Source of the DNA: Planktomarina sp.
GTDB taxonomy: Bacteria; Pseudomonadota; Alphaproteobacteria; Rhodobacterales; Rhodobacteraceae
Length of the DNA: 49,112 nucleotides
NCBI GenBank assembly: GCA_020629775.1
Contig: JAHDCP010000009.1
Span: forward strand, 1-49,112
Direction of reading: 5' to 3'
Under the pieces are notes generated by a model. That model ran no database searches. It was not told the DNA's origin and saw only the letters and a program-made list of their open reading frames with translations. This document shows, one piece after another, positions 15,770 through 28,740 of this stretch; the first letter of the stretch is position 1, and each line of letters opens with the position of its first letter. The position numbers and the translations under genes are program-made.

Positions 15770-16798
15770 ATGGCCAAGAATATCGCAATTTTAGGGGCAA
15801 GCGGATACACAGGTGCAGAACTTGTGCGACTGATCGATGGTCACCCTGAAATGCGAATTGTCGCCTTGTCTGCAGACCGTAAAGCCGGGCAACCCATGGG
15901 CGCAGTGTTCCCGCATTTGCGGCATCTGGATTTGCCCGTTTTGCAAAAAATCGATGCCATCGACTTCAGCGTTGTGGATTTGGTGTTTTGCGGTTTGCCG
16001 CACGCCACATCCCAAGCCGTAATCAAAACATTGCCTGACACGGTGAAAGTGGTGGATTTGTCCGCCGATTTTCGTCTGCGGGATACGGCTAGTTATGCGA
16101 AATGGTACGGCAAAGAACACGACGCATTGGATCTGCAAAAGACAGCCGTTTACGGCCTTACCGAATTTTACCGCGATGACATTGCAAATGCGCGATTGGT
16201 GGCTGGAACGGGGTGCAACGCGGCCACCGGCCAGTTTGCCTTACGCCCGTTGATTGAAGCCGGGGTTATTGATCTGGATTCGATCATCATCGATCTGAAA
16301 ACCGGGGTATCTGGGGCAGGGCGGTCATTGAAAGAAAACCTGCTGCACGCGGAATTGTCTGAAGGCGGCCACGCCTATGCTGTGGGGGGAACACACCGCC
16401 ACTTGGGCGAATTCGACCAAGAATTTTCCGCTATTGCGGGACGCGATGTGAAAGTTCAGTTCACACCGCATTTGATCCCTGCGAACCGGGGCATTTTGGG
16501 TACCGTTTATGTGCAAGGCGATGCGCAAACGATCCACAAAACGTTTGAAGCGGCCTATGCTGATGAACCGTTCTTGGAAGTGCTGCCTTTTGGGGAACAC
16601 CCCAGCACACGTCACGTGCGCGGTTCTAACTTTTGCCACATCGGCGTTGTGGCAGATCGAATTCCAGGGCGCGCTGTGGTGATTGCGGCGTTGGACAACC
16701 TGACCAAAGGATCATCAGGTCAGGCATTGCAAAATGCGAACTTAATGCTGGGGTTGGGGGAAACCACGGGCCTTATGGCCGCCCCGGTGTTCCCGTAA
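15770..16798 (+). CDS. argC: N-acetyl-gamma-glutamyl-phosphate reductase
   Basis: NADPH-dependent third step of arginine synthesis, reducing N-acetylglutamyl phosphate to the semialdehyde. The 342-residue protein has the Rossmann motif [15 protein letters not shown], the catalytic cysteine in [11 protein letters not shown] (Cys149) and the HRHLGE motif typical of type 1 ArgC. I start at the ATG at 15770 because GGAGG lies five bases before it and the alignment with the family begins here; the frame is open 19 codons further upstream without support. Its stop codon overlaps the ccmE start (taATG), which couples amino-acid and cytochrome genes on one message. Confidence 0.96.
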
Positions 16799-17247
16799 TG
16801 CATGGGCTGAAAAAGAAACGGCGCATACAAATTGTCGTTTTGTCATTGGTGTGTTTGGTGCTGACCACGGCCTTGGTGGGGTATGCTTTGCGTGACGGAA
16901 TAAATCTGTTCCGATCCCCCAGCCAAGTTTTGGACAACCCGCCCGCTGCCACTGAAGTGTTCCGCATGGGCGGTTTGGTGGTGGAAGACAGCATAAAGCC
17001 CGATGTGGGTGTGCGGTTCTTTTTTGCGGTAACAGACGGCGGCGCAAGCGTGCCGGTTCACTACGTCGGTGATGATATACCGCCGGATTTGTTTGAAGAA
17101 GGGCAAGGTACAGTCGCCACGGGCCGATATGAAAACGGTGTGTTTTTGGCGACAGAACTTTTGGCCAAACACGATGAAACTTACATGCCTGCTGAAGTGA
17201 TCGATTCTTTGAAAGAACAAGGCGTTTACCAAGCACCGAACGGTTGA
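16798..17247 (+). CDS. ccmE: Cytochrome c maturation heme chaperone CcmE
   Basis: Periplasmic, membrane-anchored chaperone that binds heme covalently and hands it to CcmF/CcmH for apocytochrome c. The 149-residue protein has a basic start (MHGLKKKRR), one N-terminal transmembrane anchor (about 11-30), the OB-fold segment FRMGGLVVEDSI, and the heme-binding histidine His125 in LLAKHDETYMP. The ATG overlaps the argC TAA. ccmF and ccmH, its functional partners, follow but are separated from it by the endolysin-holin pair, which is an unusual interruption. The stop TGA is followed immediately by a CtrA-like box. Confidence 0.95.
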   Translation: MHGLKKKRRIQIVVLSLVCLVLTTALVGYALRDGINLFRSPSQVLDNPPAATEVFRMGGLVVEDSIKPDVGVRFFFAVTDGGASVPVHYVGDDIPPDLFEEGQGTVATGRYENGVFLATELLAKHDETYMPAEVIDSLKEQGVYQAPNG

Positions 17248-17262
17248 TTAACACCCCATTAG
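17248..17262 (+). promoter_or_regulatory. CtrA-like box before the GTA endolysin
   Basis: TTAACACCCCATTAG matches the CtrA full-site TTAA-N7-TTAA at seven of eight fixed positions, with a perfect first half TTAAC. It begins directly after the ccmE stop codon and ends 48 bases before the endolysin ATG. CtrA-activated promoters usually carry this box over the -35 region, which would place the transcript start near 17285-17290. CtrA control of GTA lysis genes is known in Rhodobacter capsulatus. Confidence 0.6.
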
Positions 17263-17271
17263 TTTGGGCCC

Positions 17272-17308
17272 GGCATCTTCGCTTTCAAACCACTGAAGCG
17301 AGGATGCC
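17272..17308 (+). promoter_or_regulatory. 13-bp mRNA hairpin that buries the endolysin ribosome binding site
   Basis: GGCATCTTCGCTT (17272-17284) pairs along its whole length with AAGCGAGGATGCC (17296-17308), with twelve Watson-Crick pairs and one G-U pair around an 11-base loop. The right arm contains the only Shine-Dalgarno sequence, GAGGA at 17300-17304, six bases before the ATG at 17311. A transcript containing both arms should be poorly translated. No U-tract follows, so it is not a terminator. A transcript starting from the CtrA-like promoter would probably begin at or after the left arm and escape the block. Confidence 0.7.
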
Positions 17309-17310
17309 CC

Positions 17311-17922
17311 ATGCACAGCGTCAGGCAAATTGCAGAAGATATCGTCCAACGCGAAGGCGGGTTCGTAAACGATCCCGATGATCCGGGTGGGGCGACCAAC
17401 TTTGGCGTGACCATCGGAACAATGCGGCGTTTGGGCGTTGATGTGGACCAAGACGGTGACGTCGACATCAATGACGTGCGCCGATTGACCCGCCCCCAAG
17501 CTGTGGACATTTTCATTCGGCATTACTTTGAAAAACCTGGCATCGCGGATTTGCCGGGTGGGGTGCAGGCGTCTGTTTTTGACATGTATGTCAATGCTGG
17601 CAGCCATGCTGTTCGGATTTTACAATCGTTGTTGAATGATATGGGCGCATCGTTGGCGGTGGATGGCCAACTGGGCCCCGCCACCAAAGCTGCGGCTGAC
17701 CAGGCCATGCAAGCAGCACCCCACCACTTTGTTGATGCTTACGGAATTGCGCGGCGAAACTACTATTACCGTTTGGCGGACAAACGCCCCAAAAGCCGCA
17801 AATACGCAAAGCGCAGGGACGGTGGTAAAGGCGGGTGGATCCGTCGTGCAGAAGAATTCATGGCCGAAAAGTATCATTTCAGTTCCGCGGATCACCGCAA
17901 AAGGACAGCATCATGGGCATAG
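17311..17922 (+). CDS. Holin-associated N-acetylmuramidase (GTA-type endolysin, GH108)
   Basis: A 203-residue peptidoglycan hydrolase without a signal peptide, so it needs a holin to leave the cytoplasm. The glycoside hydrolase 108 core has the catalytic glutamate Glu15 in REGGFVNDPDDPGGATNFG; the C-terminal part, with LGPATKAA and a basic tail, fits the peptidoglycan-binding domain of this family. Residues 44-55 (DVDQDGDVDIND) form an EF-hand-like calcium loop with acidic residues at positions 1, 3, 5 and 12 and Gly at 6. The holin gene starts inside its 3' end. With that holin this is the lysis pair used to release gene transfer agents in Rhodobacterales. A prophage origin is less likely because no other phage gene is near. 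Confidence 0.88.
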   Translation: MHSVRQIAEDIVQREGGFVNDPDDPGGATNFGVTIGTMRRLGVDVDQDGDVDINDVRRLTRPQAVDIFIRHYFEKPGIADLPGGVQASVFDMYVNAGSHAVRILQSLLNDMGASLAVDGQLGPATKAAADQAMQAAPHHFVDAYGIARRNYYYRLADKRPKSRKYAKRRDGGKGGWIRRAEEFMAEKYHFSSADHRKRTASWA

Positions 17923-18437
17923 TTGACCGTATATTTGGATTCATTTTCGGCGGCGGGCGCACCGATATCACAGACATAGCAGAGGTTTTTCGCGAAAATG
18001 CAGAAGGGTCCGCAGTGCGGGCGGCCGATGCACATTCCGCAGCATTGATGCAGTTCGCTGCTGAATTTCGGCACGAAAGACGCGGTGTTTTTGATCGGTT
18101 TATTGATGGCGTCAACCGTTTGCCCCGCCCAGCCATGGCATTGGGGACATTGGCATTGTTGACCACGGCCATGGTGGACCCTGTATGGTTCAGTGAACGG
18201 ATGGTGGGATTGTCCGCCGTTCCCGAGCCGCTTTGGTGGCTTTTGGGGGCTGTGGTCAGCTTTTATTTTGGCGCACGCCATCAAGTGAAAGCGCAAGAAT
18301 TTCAACGATCACTTGTGGTGGGGGCAAGCGCCCTGAAAAAGGATAAACCCGGGACAGTTCAGGAAGATTTTCACCCACCCGTTATGGAAAACGCCGCCCT
18401 TGATGATTGGCACCGTTGGAAGCGCAATCGTGGCTGA
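17913..18437 (+). CDS. Holin family protein (GTA release type)
   Basis: A 174-residue membrane protein resembling the holin family described for gene-transfer release. The N-terminus (MGIVDRIFGFIFGGGRTD) is amphipathic, then a charged helical region (about 25-60), then two clear hydrophobic segments (about 73-90 and 103-122), then a hydrophilic C-terminus. It would form lesions in the inner membrane that let the endolysin reach the wall. The ATG at 17913 overlaps the endolysin stop by ten bases, so both are translated together. ccmF follows 72 bases later, on the same strand. Identification rests on size, topology, overlap with the endolysin and family resemblance; the exact lesion type is unknown. 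Confidence 0.82.
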   Translation: MGIVDRIFGFIFGGGRTDITDIAEVFRENAEGSAVRAADAHSAALMQFAAEFRHERRGVFDRFIDGVNRLPRPAMALGTLALLTTAMVDPVWFSERMVGLSAVPEPLWWLLGAVVSFYFGARHQVKAQEFQRSLVVGASALKKDKPGTVQEDFHPPVMENAALDDWHRWKRNRG

Positions 18438-18509
18438 CGCGCGGTGATGTGACCTTTCGCGCAACGCTTGTCGTTTGCACCTGCGGCGATGCAGGATATA
18501 TCGCAGGGT

Positions 18510-20447
18510 ATGTGGATTGAAACTGCGCACTTTGGCCTGACACTGGCCTTCTTTTTGGCCGTCTTGGGGTGCGTCGTGCCCCTAATGGGGGCCAGCCTGG
18601 CGCGCCGGACTTGGATGGAATTGGGCGCTGTGGCCGCCTTGGGGCAGGCGGCATTGGTGCTGTTTGCCTTTGGCGTTTTGACCCAGGCCTTTGTCACCTC
18701 TGACTTTTCGTTGCGGATCGTTGCGGTGAATTCCCATACCTTAAAGCCCATGTTGTATAAGGTTGCGGGTGTTTGGGGGAACCACGAAGGGTCTTTGTTG
18801 TTGTGGGTTCTTATCCTGACGGCTTTTGCCGCTGCCGTGGCGCTGTTGGGCCGTGCTTTGCCCACCACTTTACGCGCGCGCGTTTTGGGGGTCCAAAGCG
18901 CAGTTACGGCGGCGTTTTTGGCCTTTATCCTGTGGACATCGAACCCCTTTGAACGGTTGCCGGTGCCGCCTTTTGACGGGGCGGGGCTGAACCCTTTGCT
19001 GCAAGATCCCGGCTTGGCGTTTCATCCACCATTTTTGTATTTGGGGTATGTCGGCCTTTCCGTTACGTTTTCCTTTGCCGTTGCGGCCCTTTTGGAAGCG
19101 CGCGTCGATGCCGCCTGGGGCCGATGGGTGCGTCCATGGACATTGGCAGCTTGGTTGTTTCTGACCATTGGGATCGCGTTGGGCAGTTGGTGGGCATATT
19201 ATGAACTGGGTTGGGGCGGCTTTTGGTTTTGGGACCCTGTTGAAAACGCCAGCTTCATGCCGTGGTTGATCGCAGCGGCCCTGTTGCATTCCTCCATCGT
19301 GGTGGAAAAACGCGAATTGTTGAAAGCCTGGACCATTCTTTTGGCAATCTTGGCGTTTGGGTTTTCATTGGTGGGCACATTCATTGTGCGATCGGGGGTT
19401 TTGACCTCTGTGCACGCTTTCGCCAACGACCCAGAGCGTGGCGTTTGGATTTTGATTATCCTGTGCGCTTTTGTGGGGGGGGCGTTGGTTTTGTTTGCAT
19501 GGCGGGCATCGGCGCTGGAAACGCGCGGTGTGTTTTCCTTGGTCAGCCGGGAAAGCGCGCTTGTGGCTAATAACGTTCTGCTGGCTGTGTCTTGCTTTGT
19601 TGTGTTCGTGGGAACCATCTGGCCCTTGGTGGCGGAAATGATCTTTGATCGACGCTTGTCCGTTGGGCCGCCCTTTTTTGATGCGGCTTTTACGCCCTTT
19701 ATGGTGGCCTTGGCGGTGATACTGCCCGTTGGGTCCGCAATTCCCTGGAAGCGCGCGACATTGGGCAAAACCATGCGCCGCCTTGTGCCGGCCTTGGTTT
19801 TGGCGCTGGCGTTTATGGGCTTGGCGTGGTCCATCCAAACAAACAATTCCTTGTTGGGGCCCATTGGTTTGGCTTTGGGGGTTTGGTTGGTGGCGGGGGC
19901 GGCCACGGAAGTGTTCACCCGGGCTGCCGGGCGCTGGTCACGACTGACGCGGCTTCCATTGGCGGATTGGGGCAAAGCCACTGCCCACGCTGGATTGGGC
20001 ATTACCATATTTGCTGTGGCCGCGCTGACCGCCTGGGAAGTGGAAGATGTCCGCGTTATGCAAATCGGGGAAAGGGTGTCCTTTGGGGGCATTGGCCTTG
20101 AATTGCGATCTGTTGAAAACGTGCAAGGCCCCAACTTCTTGTCAGAGAAAGCGACCTTTGTGGTGTTTGACGGCGCAAATCCCCGTGCGCCCATCTTCGC
20201 AGAAAAAAGATTTTATCCAGTGGCGGGCATGCCCACCACCGAAGCGGCCATTTTTAACGGCGTTATGCGCGACATTTACGTGGTGATTGGGGATGCACAG
20301 GCGGGTGGGGGCTGGGCGGTGCGCAGTTTTATCAAACCTTTCGCCAATTGGATCTGGGCCGGGGCGATCATCATGGCGCTTGGGGCACTGTTGAGTTTAC
20401 TGGATCGTCGTCACCGGGTGGCTGCGGGTGCGGGGCGCAAGCCATGA
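18510..20447 (+). CDS. ccmF: Heme lyase CcmF
   Basis: Large polytopic membrane protein that, with CcmH, attaches heme from CcmE to apocytochrome c in the periplasm. About 14 transmembrane helices are predicted. The tryptophan-rich WWD-type segment is visible as WAYYELGWGGFWFWDPVE, and the conserved VWGNHEGSLLLWV stands before it. I choose the ATG at 18510 (MWIETAHFGL, 645 residues) because the family normally begins with this segment; an ATG at 18489 and a TTG at 18468 are in frame, and no start has an ideal ribosome binding site. The stop overlaps the ccmH start in ATGA. Confidence 0.94.
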   Translation: MWIETAHFGLTLAFFLAVLGCVVPLMGASLARRTWMELGAVAALGQAALVLFAFGVLTQAFVTSDFSLRIVAVNSHTLKPMLYKVAGVWGNHEGSLLLWVLILTAFAAAVALLGRALPTTLRARVLGVQSAVTAAFLAFILWTSNPFERLPVPPFDGAGLNPLLQDPGLAFHPPFLYLGYVGLSVTFSFAVAALLEARVDAAWGRWVRPWTLAAWLFLTIGIALGSWWAYYELGWGGFWFWDPVENASFMPWLIAAALLHSSIVVEKRELLKAWTILLAILAFGFSLVGTFIVRSGVLTSVHAFANDPERGVWILIILCAFVGGALVLFAWRASALETRGVFSLVSRESALVANNVLLAVSCFVVFVGTIWPLVAEMIFDRRLSVGPPFFDAAFTPFMVALAVILPVGSAIPWKRATLGKTMRRLVPALVLALAFMGLAWSIQTNNSLLGPIGLALGVWLVAGAATEVFTRAAGRWSRLTRLPLADWGKATAHAGLGITIFAVAALTAWEVEDVRVMQIGERVSFGGIGLELRSVENVQGPNFLSEKATFVVFDGANPRAPIFAEKRFYPVAGMPTTEAAIFNGVMRDIYVVIGDAQAGGGWAVRSFIKPFANWIWAGAIIMALGALLSLLDRRHRVAAGAGRKP

Positions 20448-21740: not shown

Positions 21741-22907
21741 TTATGCCCGCTGGTCGGCACCGCCATCCACGCGCACGGCTTGGATATCTTGGGATGTCAC
21801 CATGGCAGCAGCAGCTGCCACAACAGCCACCTGACGGCCATCCACAACGATACGCGCATTGCCATCACCATCGTTTTCAACGCTGACAACAGGCTCAGTA
21901 TCGCCGGTGTACTCCACCATGATCGCATCTTCACCGGCGACAAAGTTCCGGATCACTTCCAAGGTTTCTGTGTCACCAGATGCAATGGCCGATGCCACTT
22001 GTGCTTCCAAAGATGCACCAAGATCCGTAGTGGAATCTGACAATATGTCCGCAGCCGCTTGCGCAGTTGCTTGGGCTTCAGCGAAAGGGTTGGCGTCAAA
22101 AGTGTCGTACAGAACTTCCAAAGTTTCAGACAATTCCGCGTAAACGGGTGTGTCTTCAACAGTGTCTACCGCTTCATCAACATCGTCAGCATTCGCCACA
22201 ACGTTTTCGCCAGCCTGGGCGATGCCCACGTTGTCTTCGACAACAACTTCAGCTTCGGCCAATGTTTCGGCAGCTGTTTCAACGGTTTCGGACAACAGAG
22301 GCGCTACAAATTGCGTAACGGTCTGTTCAACGGGTTCCGCTGTTGTGGCACCAGCAAACGCATTTGACTGCATTACGCCAGCGACATCAGACACAGGTGC
22401 GGAAACAATTTCTTCGAACGTTTCTGCAAACAACGTGTCCAATTCATCCGCAACAGTTTCTACAAGTTGCGATGTGCCCTTTGACGTCAGCGCATCAATC
22501 TGGGCCCACAAATCTTTGGCAGGTGCTAAATCGATCGCAAAATCAGCGGCATCCAGTTCGACATCATCTAACTCAGAAACGAACGTTTCGATGTCGTCAG
22601 CGATTGCGTCAAAGGATTCATCAAGAACGTCGGCTGCCACGCCGCCTGCAAGTTCGTCATCGCCATCAAAGCCGATCACAACATCTTGCCACTGCGCTAC
22701 GGTTTCGCCGCTGTCTTCGTAAGCCAGCACCGTTTCGGAGGAGACATAGTCTTGGATCAAATCACCAGTTACGCCCAAGTCTGACGCGCCGTCAGTCGAC
22801 AGGTCTTGGACCATCTGGTCATTGCTGACCTCGGCCTCTTCATCGCCTATCGCTGCGGTGGTGACGCCCGAACCCAATAACCAGGGCAGGATCAGCATCA
22901 TTTCCAC
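21741..22907 (-). CDS. Very acidic, alanine-rich protein of unknown function with one RTX-like repeat
   Basis: A 388-residue protein I do not recognise. About 22 percent of residues are Asp or Glu (86 by my count) against only 7 Lys plus Arg, giving an extremely low pI. The N-terminus, MEMMLILPWLLGSGVTTAA, is hydrophobic and could be a membrane anchor or a poor signal peptide. Residues around 79-89 read GFDGDDELAGG, a single copy of the calcium-binding RTX nonapeptide type. The rest is helical, Ala/Glu/Thr/Val-rich and low in complexity, ending with a short beta-like segment rich in valine. The GTG at 22907 has GGAG eight bases upstream. It stands alone between a convergent hydratase gene and gltA. 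No function is proposed beyond possible calcium binding or surface exposure. Confidence 0.7.
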   Translation of the reverse strand: MEMMLILPWLLGSGVTTAAIGDEEAEVSNDQMVQDLSTDGASDLGVTGDLIQDYVSSETVLAYEDSGETVAQWQDVVIGFDGDDELAGGVAADVLDESFDAIADDIETFVSELDDVELDAADFAIDLAPAKDLWAQIDALTSKGTSQLVETVADELDTLFAETFEEIVSAPVSDVAGVMQSNAFAGATTAEPVEQTVTQFVAPLLSETVETAAETLAEAEVVVEDNVGIAQAGENVVANADDVDEAVDTVEDTPVYAELSETLEVLYDTFDANPFAEAQATAQAAADILSDSTTDLGASLEAQVASAIASGDTETLEVIRNFVAGEDAIMVEYTGDTEPVVSVENDGDGNARIVVDGRQVAVVAAAAAMVTSQDIQAVRVDGGADQRA

Positions 22908-23114: not shown

Positions 23115-23129
23115 TTAACAATTTGTTAA
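23115..23129. promoter_or_regulatory. Perfect CtrA-type palindrome downstream of gltA
   Basis: TTAACAATTTGTTAA is a 15-base palindrome with seven-base arms and fits TTAA-N7-TTAA exactly, with TTAAC reading outward on both strands. It lies 13 bases after the gltA stop codon and 208 bases upstream of the acidic-protein gene. A second, one base too short copy, TTAA-N6-CTAAC, begins at 22934, just before that gene. It could regulate the acidic-protein gene, or serve as part of the gltA 3' end. Confidence 0.4.
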
Positions 23130-25973: not shown

Positions 25974-27995
25974 GTGCAGCTGTTGGACCACATTGCGGCG
26001 GGACTGATCCGCCAGGTGACCCGGCGGTTTGTTTGGGCCCCGATCTTTTTTGCAGCGGGCATTGGCCTCTATTTCGGTTTGAAATTCGAACCAAGCGCGC
26101 TGATGGCCCTTTGCGTTTTGTGCGCAGTGGTTTTGTGCGGCGCGTTTGGTGCATGGCGCGGTGGGTACACAGCAATCGTGGCGAATGTCTTGGTTTTGGT
26201 GGGGTTGGGGCTGGTTTGGGCCGCGGTTCAGGCACAATGGGTCGCCGAACCGGTTCTTCAAAAAAGACACTACGGCCCCGTACAGGGGGTTGTTTATGCC
26301 AGGGATGTTTCCGGTTCAGGGAACATGCGCCTTTGGTTAAGAAATGTTCATTTGCCCGGTGTCACAGGCGCACGGCCCACGCAGGTGCGTGTTTCATTGG
26401 CCCGGGCAGGGGATTGGGCCCCTGAAATCGGCCAAACCATTCAGGTTACCGCCCATTTGTCCCCGCCACCCGCACCAGCGGAACCTGGCGGGTTTGATTT
26501 TCAACGCCACGCTTGGTTTTTGAAACTGGGGGCTGTGGGATACGCGCGTGCGCCGCCTGTTTTGTGGGAACATCCCCAAGTATTGCCCTTAAGCGCGAGA
26601 ACAGAAGCGTTGCGGCATAAAATTGCAGATGGGTTGATGTCTCGCATGCCAGAACAAACCGCAGGGGTTGCGGTGGCGATTTCAGTTGGCCTGCGTCACG
26701 GTTTACAAGACGCCACTCAAGATACCTTGCGCAAGGCGAACTTGGCTCATTTGCTGGCGATCTCGGGTCTGCACATGGGGCTGTTGACGGCGATCATTTT
26801 CTTTTGTGTTCGGGCGGTCTTGGCCCTTCACATGCGATTAAACATAGCGGGGTTGGTGAAACCCATGGCAGCAGTGGCCGCGCTGGCTGCTGGGGCTGGG
26901 TATTTGGTTCTTTCAGGTCAAAGCATTGCAACAGAACGGGCGTTTGCCATGGCCGCCGTTGCGTTCTTGGCCATCTTATTGGGGCGTCGGGCGTTGAATT
27001 TGCGGGCCTTGGCCGTTGCAATGTGGATTGTCTTGTTAATACGGCCCCAAGCCTTGCTGTCGCCTGGGTTTCAAATGTCCTTTGCCGCCACATGCGCGCT
27101 GATTGTCGGCTTTGGCTGGTTGCAAAAAACGGGTGTGGCCCGGTTGCCAGCGCCTGTGCGTTGGGTGGTTTATTCCATTGCCAGTGCGGCCTTTGCCGGC
27201 ATGGCAACAGCCCCTTTTGCCGCCGCACATTTCAACATGCTGCCGCATTATGGGATCGTGGCCAATGTGTTTGCGGTTCCTTTGATGGGCATGGTGGTCA
27301 TGCCAGGCATGTTGCTGGCTTTGGTAGGGCTTCCCTTTGGGTTAGAAGGCGTTGGTCTGTGGGTTGCGGATCAGGGGCTGCGGTGGATCATGGCTGTGGC
27401 CGAAACCGTTGTGGCCTGGGACGGGTCATTCACCTTAATCAAAGCCCCGTCGGTTGGCGTTTTGCCGATAGTGGCCATTGGGTTTGTGGCCGCCTTACTT
27501 TTGTTGGGGTGGTCCCGATTGATCGGTTGTGCAGTTTTGGGGGTCGGTGTCACCATATGGATCATGACACCCAGGCCTGATGTTTTGATCGCGGATTCAG
27601 GAAACCTGGTGGGAACCATGACCAGCAAAGGGCGCCACATTTCAAAGGAAAAGGGGCAGGGGTTTGTGGCACGGGTTTGGTTGGAAAACGATGGGGACGC
27701 CGCATTCCAAAAGCTGGCCCATGGCAGGAAACCCGCAAAAACATTCGTAACCGTCGTGAAGGATGTGCCTGCGGGGGACCCTGATTGCACCGCCATTCCC
27801 ATGGTGGTGGCCAAATGGGTGAAGCCCAGCCGATGCGATGTCATTGATCTGCGCATCTTGTCGCGCACAGGCAGCCAAGCGGGATATCTGTTGCCGAACG
27901 GGGCCCTGCAATGGCAAACGGCCCGATCAGTGTCGGGCCGTCGTCTTTGGAATGATCGCTTTGTGCGTCGCGAAGGGTGGCTTCGGGATCAATAA
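25974..27995 (+). CDS. comEC: ComEC/Rec2 family DNA uptake channel
   Basis: A 673-residue polytopic inner-membrane protein of the ComEC/Rec2 family, which moves single-stranded DNA into the cytoplasm. The N-terminal part holds two or three helices and an OB-like periplasmic domain (about 90-190). The competence domain contains the signature [19 protein letters not shown] at about 245-265, followed by some ten helices. After about residue 525 comes a soluble domain, [16 protein letters not shown], where no HxHxDH metal motif of the beta-lactamase-like nuclease can be found. ComEC is required for recipients to take up GTA DNA in Rhodobacter capsulatus. The GTG start has GGGGGCGGA upstream. Its 3' end overlaps lexA by seven bases on the opposite strand. 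Confidence 0.9.
27918..27941 (-). terminator. lexA terminator hairpin embedded in comEC coding sequence
   Basis: ACGGCCCGA and TCGGGCCGT form a perfect nine-pair stem with a six-base loop. On the minus strand it lies 47 bases after the lexA stop codon and is followed by TTTG. It sits inside the last codons of the convergent comEC gene, so the coding sequence has been kept compatible with a terminator-like structure. The U-tract is short. Confidence 0.5.
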
Positions 27996-28690
27996 GTCCG
28001 GATCAAACCCACCAACTTGCCGCGCACTTCCACTTGGTCTTTGCGGAACACACGCGTTTCATAGGCCGGGTTGGCCGCTTCCAATGCGATGGAATCGCCG
28101 TTCTTGCGCAACCGTTTCAGCGTGGCTTCTTCGTTTTCCACAACGGCCACAACAATTTCACCGTTCATCGCGTCATGGGTTTCGCGGATCACCACGACAT
28201 CCCCGTCGTTGATGCCTGCATCGATCATGGAATCGCCTTTGACTTCCAAGGCATAGTGTTCGCCTTTGCCGCCCAACATGTTGCCAGGCACCGGAATGTC
28301 GCGGCTGTAATCGGCGATGGCTGAAATGGGCACACCTGCTGCAATTCGTCCCATCATTTTGACAGTGCCAATATCGCCCGTATCCAAATCAATCGCACCA
28401 GAAGGCCGGCTTGGTTTGGATCCTTCGATCACACGGGGTTCAAAGCCGCGTTTTGTTTCGCCACCGCCACCCAGGGCTTCGGGCATTTTCACAATTTCGA
28501 TTGCACGGGCACGATGGGCCAAACGGCGAATAAATCCGCGTTCTTCCAAGGCTGTGATCAAACGGTGAATACCGGACTTGGATCGCAGATCCAAAGCTTC
28601 CTTCATTTCATCAAAAGAAGGCGACACCCCATTGGCTTGGGTCTTCTTATGGATATAGTCCAAAAGTTGTAGTTGTTTTTGCGTTAACAT
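27989..28690 (-). CDS. lexA: SOS repressor LexA
   Basis: Represses DNA-damage genes and cleaves itself when RecA filaments form. The 233-residue protein starts [13 protein letters not shown] (ATG at 28690, AAGGAG upstream) and has the winged-helix DNA-binding domain (1-65), a long alphaproteobacterial linker (about 70-112), the cleavage site Ala118-Gly119 in RIAAGVP, and the catalytic Ser154 in GDSMIDAG with Lys192 in ATLKRL. The promoter directly upstream carries a GTTC-N7-GTTC LexA box and a CtrA box, so autoregulation and a cell-cycle/GTA link are likely. An in-frame upstream extension to 28726 is disfavoured because it would run into these sites. Confidence 0.97.
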
Positions 28691-28725
28691 GCGCTGCTCC
28701 TTCGCTGTAACATCGCTCGGATTCA

Positions 28726-28740
28726 TTAATGTTTTGTTAA
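28726..28740 (-). promoter_or_regulatory. CtrA box at the predicted lexA transcription start
   Basis: On the minus strand TTAACAAAACATTAA matches TTAA-N7-TTAA perfectly. It begins one base downstream of the -10 hexamer, so it covers the expected +1 near 28735. At this position a bound CtrA would be expected to block rather than activate the lexA promoter. Distance to the lexA ATG is 35 bases. Confidence 0.65.

Follow-up and report, generated by a model that had tools for sequence, protein, structure and literature searches.

Gene transfer agents (GTAs) kill the cells that produce them, and what keeps their lysis genes silent in most cells is therefore a central question. In the window (the whole 49,112-nucleotide stretch of Planktomarina sp. 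DNA analysed here), the lysis cassette, an endolysin gene followed by a holin gene, is placed between ccmE and ccmF, and argC, ccmE, endolysin, holin, ccmF and ccmH all lie on one strand according to Pfam-type gene calls (Table 1). The ATG of ccmE overlaps the stop of argC (TAATG), and 63 bases separate the end of ccmE (17247) from the endolysin ATG (17311). The cassette is of the RcGTA type: a GH108 endolysin precedes a GTA_holin_3TM protein in a genome that carries a CtrA ortholog (418.9 bits against a curated cut-off of 350) and the GTA marker gene GTA_TIM. A complete-looking genome of the same genus (G045) had no endolysin match.

We propose that the cassette is guarded by a hairpin over the Shine-Dalgarno sequence (SD) of the endolysin. 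Messenger RNA running on from ccmE would carry both arms of this hairpin, so that the SD would be locked and the lysis genes left untranslated; CtrA, together with GafA, would fire the lysis promoter at TTAG/TTAACC, the transcript would begin in the loop and, being devoid of the left arm, would be translated. That the hairpin works in this way, via a promoter placed inside it against read-through, has in our estimate a probability of about two in three, a figure tempered by the start reported for the gafA transcript and by our loose start estimate. We infer the CtrA-driven start in the loop, the read-through from ccmE and the difference in translation between the two mRNAs from sequences and modelled folds. 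The original prediction proposed the same interpretation for the window, and it is supported by three observations developed below: the arms match each other, the loop lies at the expected start, and the hairpin loses strength at loci where little read-through is expected.

Table 1. Features of the lysis cassette and its leader in the window, with the basis of each assignment.
Feature	Position	Strand	Basis
ccmE, upstream housekeeping gene	16798..17247	+	Pfam CcmE 2.4e-26; sequence
CtrA-like full box TTAA-N7-TTAG, TTAACACCCCATTAG	17248..17262	+	sequence; pattern scan
Hairpin left (anti-SD) arm GGCATCTTCGCTT	17272..17284	+	sequence; fold
Promoter element CA...T, at +15/+16/+20 from the half-site	17274..17279	+	family logos; sequence
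Hairpin loop	17285..17295	+	fold; predicted CtrA-driven start at about 17291-17294 (inference)
Hairpin right arm AAGCGAGGATGCC, carries the SD	17296..17308	+	sequence; fold
Shine-Dalgarno GAGGA	17300..17304	+	sequence; predicted accessibility
GTA endolysin, GH108 + PG_binding_3	17311..17922	+	domain matches
GTA holin, 3TM (GTA_holin_3TM)	17913..18437	+	domain match; sequence
ccmF	18468..20447	+	domain match

The 13-pair hairpin and the GAGGA buried in it lie where they had been described. The minimum-energy fold of 17240-17340 includes the hairpin (-32.4 kcal/mol; z -2.77; matched by 1 of 200 shuffles), and the 63 bases from -60 to +3 of the endolysin gene fold with a z of -6.1. The predicted unpaired probability of the SD is 0.0006 in the long leader versus 0.51 when the leader starts at -22. 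When the 5' end was moved stepwise, the SD was predicted to open once it reached 17279; taking either half of the CtrA-like box as the reference therefore gives an open SD. The holin ATG overlaps the stop of the endolysin, and in 67 of the 68 loci examined a start codon lies at this stop or close to it; the two genes are thus probably coupled in translation, and the hairpin would probably protect both.

Whether this layout is peculiar to the window was addressed with two sets of relatives. The first consisted of the best 80 of at least 524 endolysin loci of relatives, and the second of 129 further places in Rhodobacteraceae genomes (a 130th being the window's own locus), taken from a search with endolysin matches in 173 of 198 genomes and leaving out three places on G095, G158 and G166 as well as everything listed after G127. 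Pooled with the window, and after removal of the window's own two copies and five duplicates, they gave 205 distinct leaders. In 168 of these ccmE lies at most 400 bases upstream of the endolysin, and the fold z is -1.93 there versus -0.63 in the 37 others (p 5e-4). For the 168 leaders behind ccmE, the predicted median SD unpaired probability is 0.15 with a start at -80 versus 0.47 with a start at -22, a short leader chosen after a first look at the leaders. Among 80 leaders analysed earlier (the window plus 79 loci, L035 having been dropped), the median z was -1.75 at the endolysin, and at the other starts of the same loci it was -0.48 for ccmE (72), 0.19 for ccmH (51), -0.03 for ccmF (30) and 0.19 for the holin (80). 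Five loci (L142, L165, L178, L187 and L202) represent a second endolysin copy of lower rank, the same genome having a closer match elsewhere; none of them lies behind ccmE, and common upstream genes are found at L178, L202 and L079, and likewise at L142 and L187, which are perhaps prophages.

Arm sequences vary widely between species, and a trivial origin of the fold has to be weighed, namely that any G-rich SD would find pairing partners in C-rich promoter DNA. We used a swap test in which the right segment of each leader (-21 to -1) was paired with its own left segment (-45 to -22) or with the left segments of other leaders, the segments having been chosen after a first look at the leaders. 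Swapped left segments already reach -12.1 kcal/mol on average, as composition would have it, but own segments reach -16.5 kcal/mol. In 79 of 168 leaders the own left arm ranked within the top 5% of candidates (8.4 expected; KS p 4e-29), against 9/168 and 13/168 for control left segments, and it still did so in 35 of 152 leaders when the SD 6-mer was masked (KS p 4e-16; control 9/152). A chance product of base composition is thus hardly credible. The original prediction had called for compensatory changes between the arms in relatives, and the arms do match in the family-wide swap test, with a weak signal at the level of single pairs: MAFFT alignments were made of two close groups and pairs counted in one of them, a group of 7, where covariation was weak, with 2 pairs changed on both sides and as many in 173 of 500 shuffles. 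Because these counts are near those of the shuffles, at least partly because the helices slip register, the claim that the arms match rests on the swap test. In our view the hairpin is, with high probability, a functional RNA element that is conserved and occludes the SD.

The same comparison bears on a different reading, in which the palindrome acts as DNA, as an operator over the promoter bound by a regulator. The palindrome does overlap the presumed core promoter, and GafA is described as binding the R. capsulatus lysis promoter in the available text of PMC6363796. Against it, the arms are poorly conserved except for the SD and the promoter element while their complementarity is kept, and we consider this reading very improbable.

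Where the transcript begins was approached from the CtrA-like box, which is present directly after ccmE as had been claimed. Its proximal half TTAG (17259-17262) stands at -52, where the box has its median position in the family. The register of the family was established on 156 of the 168 leaders, selected by cut-offs on box score and fold energy, and only hairpins with their 3' side within -20 to -4 were taken. In these 156 leaders the median position of the TTAACC-like half-site is -52; counted from it, the median end of the left arm is +29 and the median start of the right arm +35, the latter being partly set by the selection of hairpins by their 3' side. Anchoring 135 leaders on the half-site brought out a moderately conserved element (C at +15 in 58%, A at +16 in 66%, T at +20 in 80%), which also occurs in 14 loci without ccmE upstream, mostly with a divergent upstream gene (64, 86 and 86%). 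In the window, TTAG at 17259 is followed in the same register by CA at 17274-17275 and by T at 17279, which places the element across part of the left arm. No -10 hexamer was recognisable in the half-site-anchored leaders, in which +20 to +27 is C/T-rich.

According to the available text of PMC4287350, full and half activator sites of CtrA in Caulobacter lie near -35, and a start is therefore expected near +32 to +36 from the half-site. With a start assumed at +32, transcripts of 105 of 156 leaders would begin in the loop, 34 in or before the left arm and 17 in the right arm, and 150 would include the SD. The corresponding numbers are 85, 14, 57 and 139 for +35, and 63, 14, 79 and 133 for +36. 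The start estimate relative to the half-site is thus loose on these sequence counts; the loop nevertheless lies at about the point expected of a CtrA half-site promoter, some 30-35 bases after TTAACC, as the proposal anticipated. For the window, a start inside the loop stands, and its place is shifted by the family register, which makes the proximal TTAG the working half-site, from 17285-17290 to about 17291-17294, both predicted ranges falling within the loop. When the 5' end was moved from +17 to +26, the predicted SD unpaired probability rose from 0.17 to 0.42 in 146 leaders; this stepping covered 146 of the 152 exposed loci, 15 of the 16 with a terminator under a relaxed rule and 12 of the 13 with a divergent upstream gene (these classes are set out below). 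A scan for TTAAC-N10-CAGNYTT in 149 genomes returned matches no better than a reversed-pattern control, and no start-site inference could therefore be drawn from other genes.

Two reports count against a promoter within the hairpin. In Caulobacter, 24 CtrA half-sites over the -10 region repress (PMC4287350, in its available part), and in R. capsulatus the RNA-seq coverage described in the available part of PMC6363796 places the gafA start right at the CtrA site, some 87 bases ahead of the start codon, which departs from the spacing assumed here. If the lysis promoter behaved like that of gafA, both arms would be transcribed.

The hairpin would then act in cis on the CtrA-driven mRNA, starting upstream of the left arm, and would be opened by a temperature shift, a small RNA or a protein so as to time lysis. 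A hairpin over the SD is a common layout of such cis switches, and some loci with a divergent upstream gene, where read-through is unexpected, still pair. On the other side, the left arm shares bases with the promoter element at +15 to +21, which is also kept in loci without ccmE upstream, so that the start should lie downstream of this element; no Rfam covariance model matched up to E 1 in the stretch 16900-17600; and a cis switch does not predict the dependence of hairpin strength on exposure to upstream transcription that is reported below. We consider such a switch unlikely.

The window contains further CtrA-like sites. The pattern TTAAC-N6-TTAR occurs 4 times in the window where 0.14 would be expected, and one palindrome accounts for two of these matches; the looser TTAA-N7-TTAA with 1 mismatch was found 7 times against 6.4 expected, not above chance. 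One full box, TTAACAAAACATTAA at 28726-28740 on the minus strand, stands at the start of lexA (27989-28726), whose neighbour encodes a Competence (ComEC-type) domain; for D. shibae, too, the available text of PMC6473078 reports an in silico CtrA site at lexA. The palindromic box, TTAACAATTTGTTAA at 23115-23129, lies upstream of a 388-aa minus-strand ORF (21741-22907) without a Pfam match.

If the hairpin guards against read-through, it should be weaker where read-through is absent, and this was seen in two natural experiments. Where an automatic call placed a terminator between ccmE and the endolysin, the fold z was -0.35 (10 loci) versus -1.95 (158 loci; p 0.002). This strict terminator rule was primary, and its contrast held in PGLS on a 168-tip tree for z (p 0.0008), SD openness (p 0.0004) and fold energy (p 0.006). 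A relaxed rule, set post hoc once the strict result had been seen, opposed 16 loci to 152 exposed ones and gave p 0.0003 for z (PGLS 0.0002), with no significant difference in fold energy alone (p 0.10; 16 vs 152). Among loci with gaps of more than 100 bases only, the contrast had a p of 0.12 under the strict and 0.035 under the relaxed rule, and a z of about -2 or lower was kept in 4 of the 16 relaxed-terminator loci (L104, L161, L098, L108). At L104, L145 and L183, and similarly at L045, CCTCCGGCGGG followed by a T-rich stretch lies between ccmE and the endolysin; in L104, L145 and L183 these elements look like recurrent terminators or repeats of the family.

The second natural experiment is offered by 13 loci with a divergent upstream gene, as the protein conservation of that gene shows (L057, L128, L129, L137, L138, L139, L154, L157, L162, L177, L181, L186 and L211). 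No ccmE was found in the upstream stretch covered, where the neighbour is a well conserved gene of about 150 aa; most of these loci keep the TTAA/CA/T promoter element, and they are probably one lineage. Their z is -0.63 and their SD openness 0.25, which differ from the 152 exposed loci with p 0.01 and 0.005, respectively. Some arm pairing is retained (swap test, KS p 0.011): z lies below -1 in 5 of the 13 and SD openness below 0.2 in 6, with strong hairpins at L057 and L154 (z -4.0 and -4.9). That the hairpin weakens in both classes of locus is in keeping with a role as a guard against read-through.

A weaker hairpin in the presence of another terminator would also be expected if the hairpin were itself the 3' end of the ccmE mRNA, a terminator or stabiliser overlapping the SD incidentally. 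The sequence speaks against this, as no intrinsic terminator was listed at 17272-17308, which lacks the combination of G+C stem and T-tract, and at least 6 T within the 13 bases from -5 to +8 occur in only 3 of the 152 exposed leaders. The SD itself is covered, with openness below 0.2 in 113 of 152 exposed loci. Moreover, in the 68 loci used for the ccmF and holin comparisons, the hairpin was stronger with ccmF at most 1.8 kb downstream (z -2.27 in 47 versus -1.21 in 21; p 0.007), where termination would cost the expression of ccmF. A role as the ccmE 3' end is accordingly improbable. Under the promoter-in-hairpin reading, a downstream ccmF may mark the loci where read-through is needed.

Taken across the family, we lean, with the odds slightly in its favour, towards a broader view: in many Rhodobacteraceae genera an RNA catch set by CtrA would keep a phage-derived cassette in a respiratory gene row and be traded against terminators, decaying once read-through is cut off by a terminator or a gene inversion, and being strongest with ccmF downstream. 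If true, this would help to explain how, in roughly one hundred of the sampled genera, a lethal cassette can persist directly behind ccmE, and the loci with a hairpin versus those with a terminator form a natural series on how bacteria insulate toxic genes from read-through.

The proposed logic has known counterparts. In the transposons IS10 and IS50, outside read-through folds back over the transposase start and the element's own promoter starts inside the fold; that arrangement protects the transposase of a mobile element and not a lysis gene. Another counterpart is found among the GTA genes of R. capsulatus: rcc00555/rcc00556 of RcGTA also encode an endolysin and a holin behind a promoter with a putative CtrA half-site, and these genes need CtrA and GafA, the latter binding the cassette promoter (PMC9638019 and PMC6363796, in their available parts). 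The main text of these two papers contains no mention of a hairpin, and no mapping of the lysis-gene transcript start is found in their available parts. We found no dRNA-seq study of GTAs in Rhodobacter in the open-licence literature, nor, among the matches listed there and in their available text, a report of such a hairpin at GTA lysis genes. The precedent cited by the original prediction, phage T4 gene e, agrees with its description in the available text of PMC3014915, where the SD is closed in long early transcripts and open in short late ones, with a 100-fold effect; I-TevI uses the same long-closed, short-open design (PMC2988022, available part), In T4, late promoters just upstream yield transcripts that lack the 5' part of the structure, and in close relatives of the phage a late promoter lies within the stretch encoding the 5' strand (available parts of PMC3014915 and PMC2988022). 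Gene e (like soc, 49 and I-TevI in its SD sequestration) resembles our locus as a lysis enzyme gene with an SD sequestered in the long transcript, and in prediction the window shows the same sequestered long-leader SD and a structure that recurs among relatives; a dedicated promoter firing after the 5' arm is predicted here from the half-site position and the step at which the SD opens. The differences are that the gene is chromosomal here, that the long transcript would come from a housekeeping row and not from phage early promoters, and that the switch promoter looks CtrA-controlled; starts and a 100-fold effect are reported for T4, whereas the present switch is proposed from sequence and predicted folds. 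With the same roughly two-in-three probability, the promoter-in-hairpin logic known from T4 gene e would operate here in a lysis cassette domesticated by its host.
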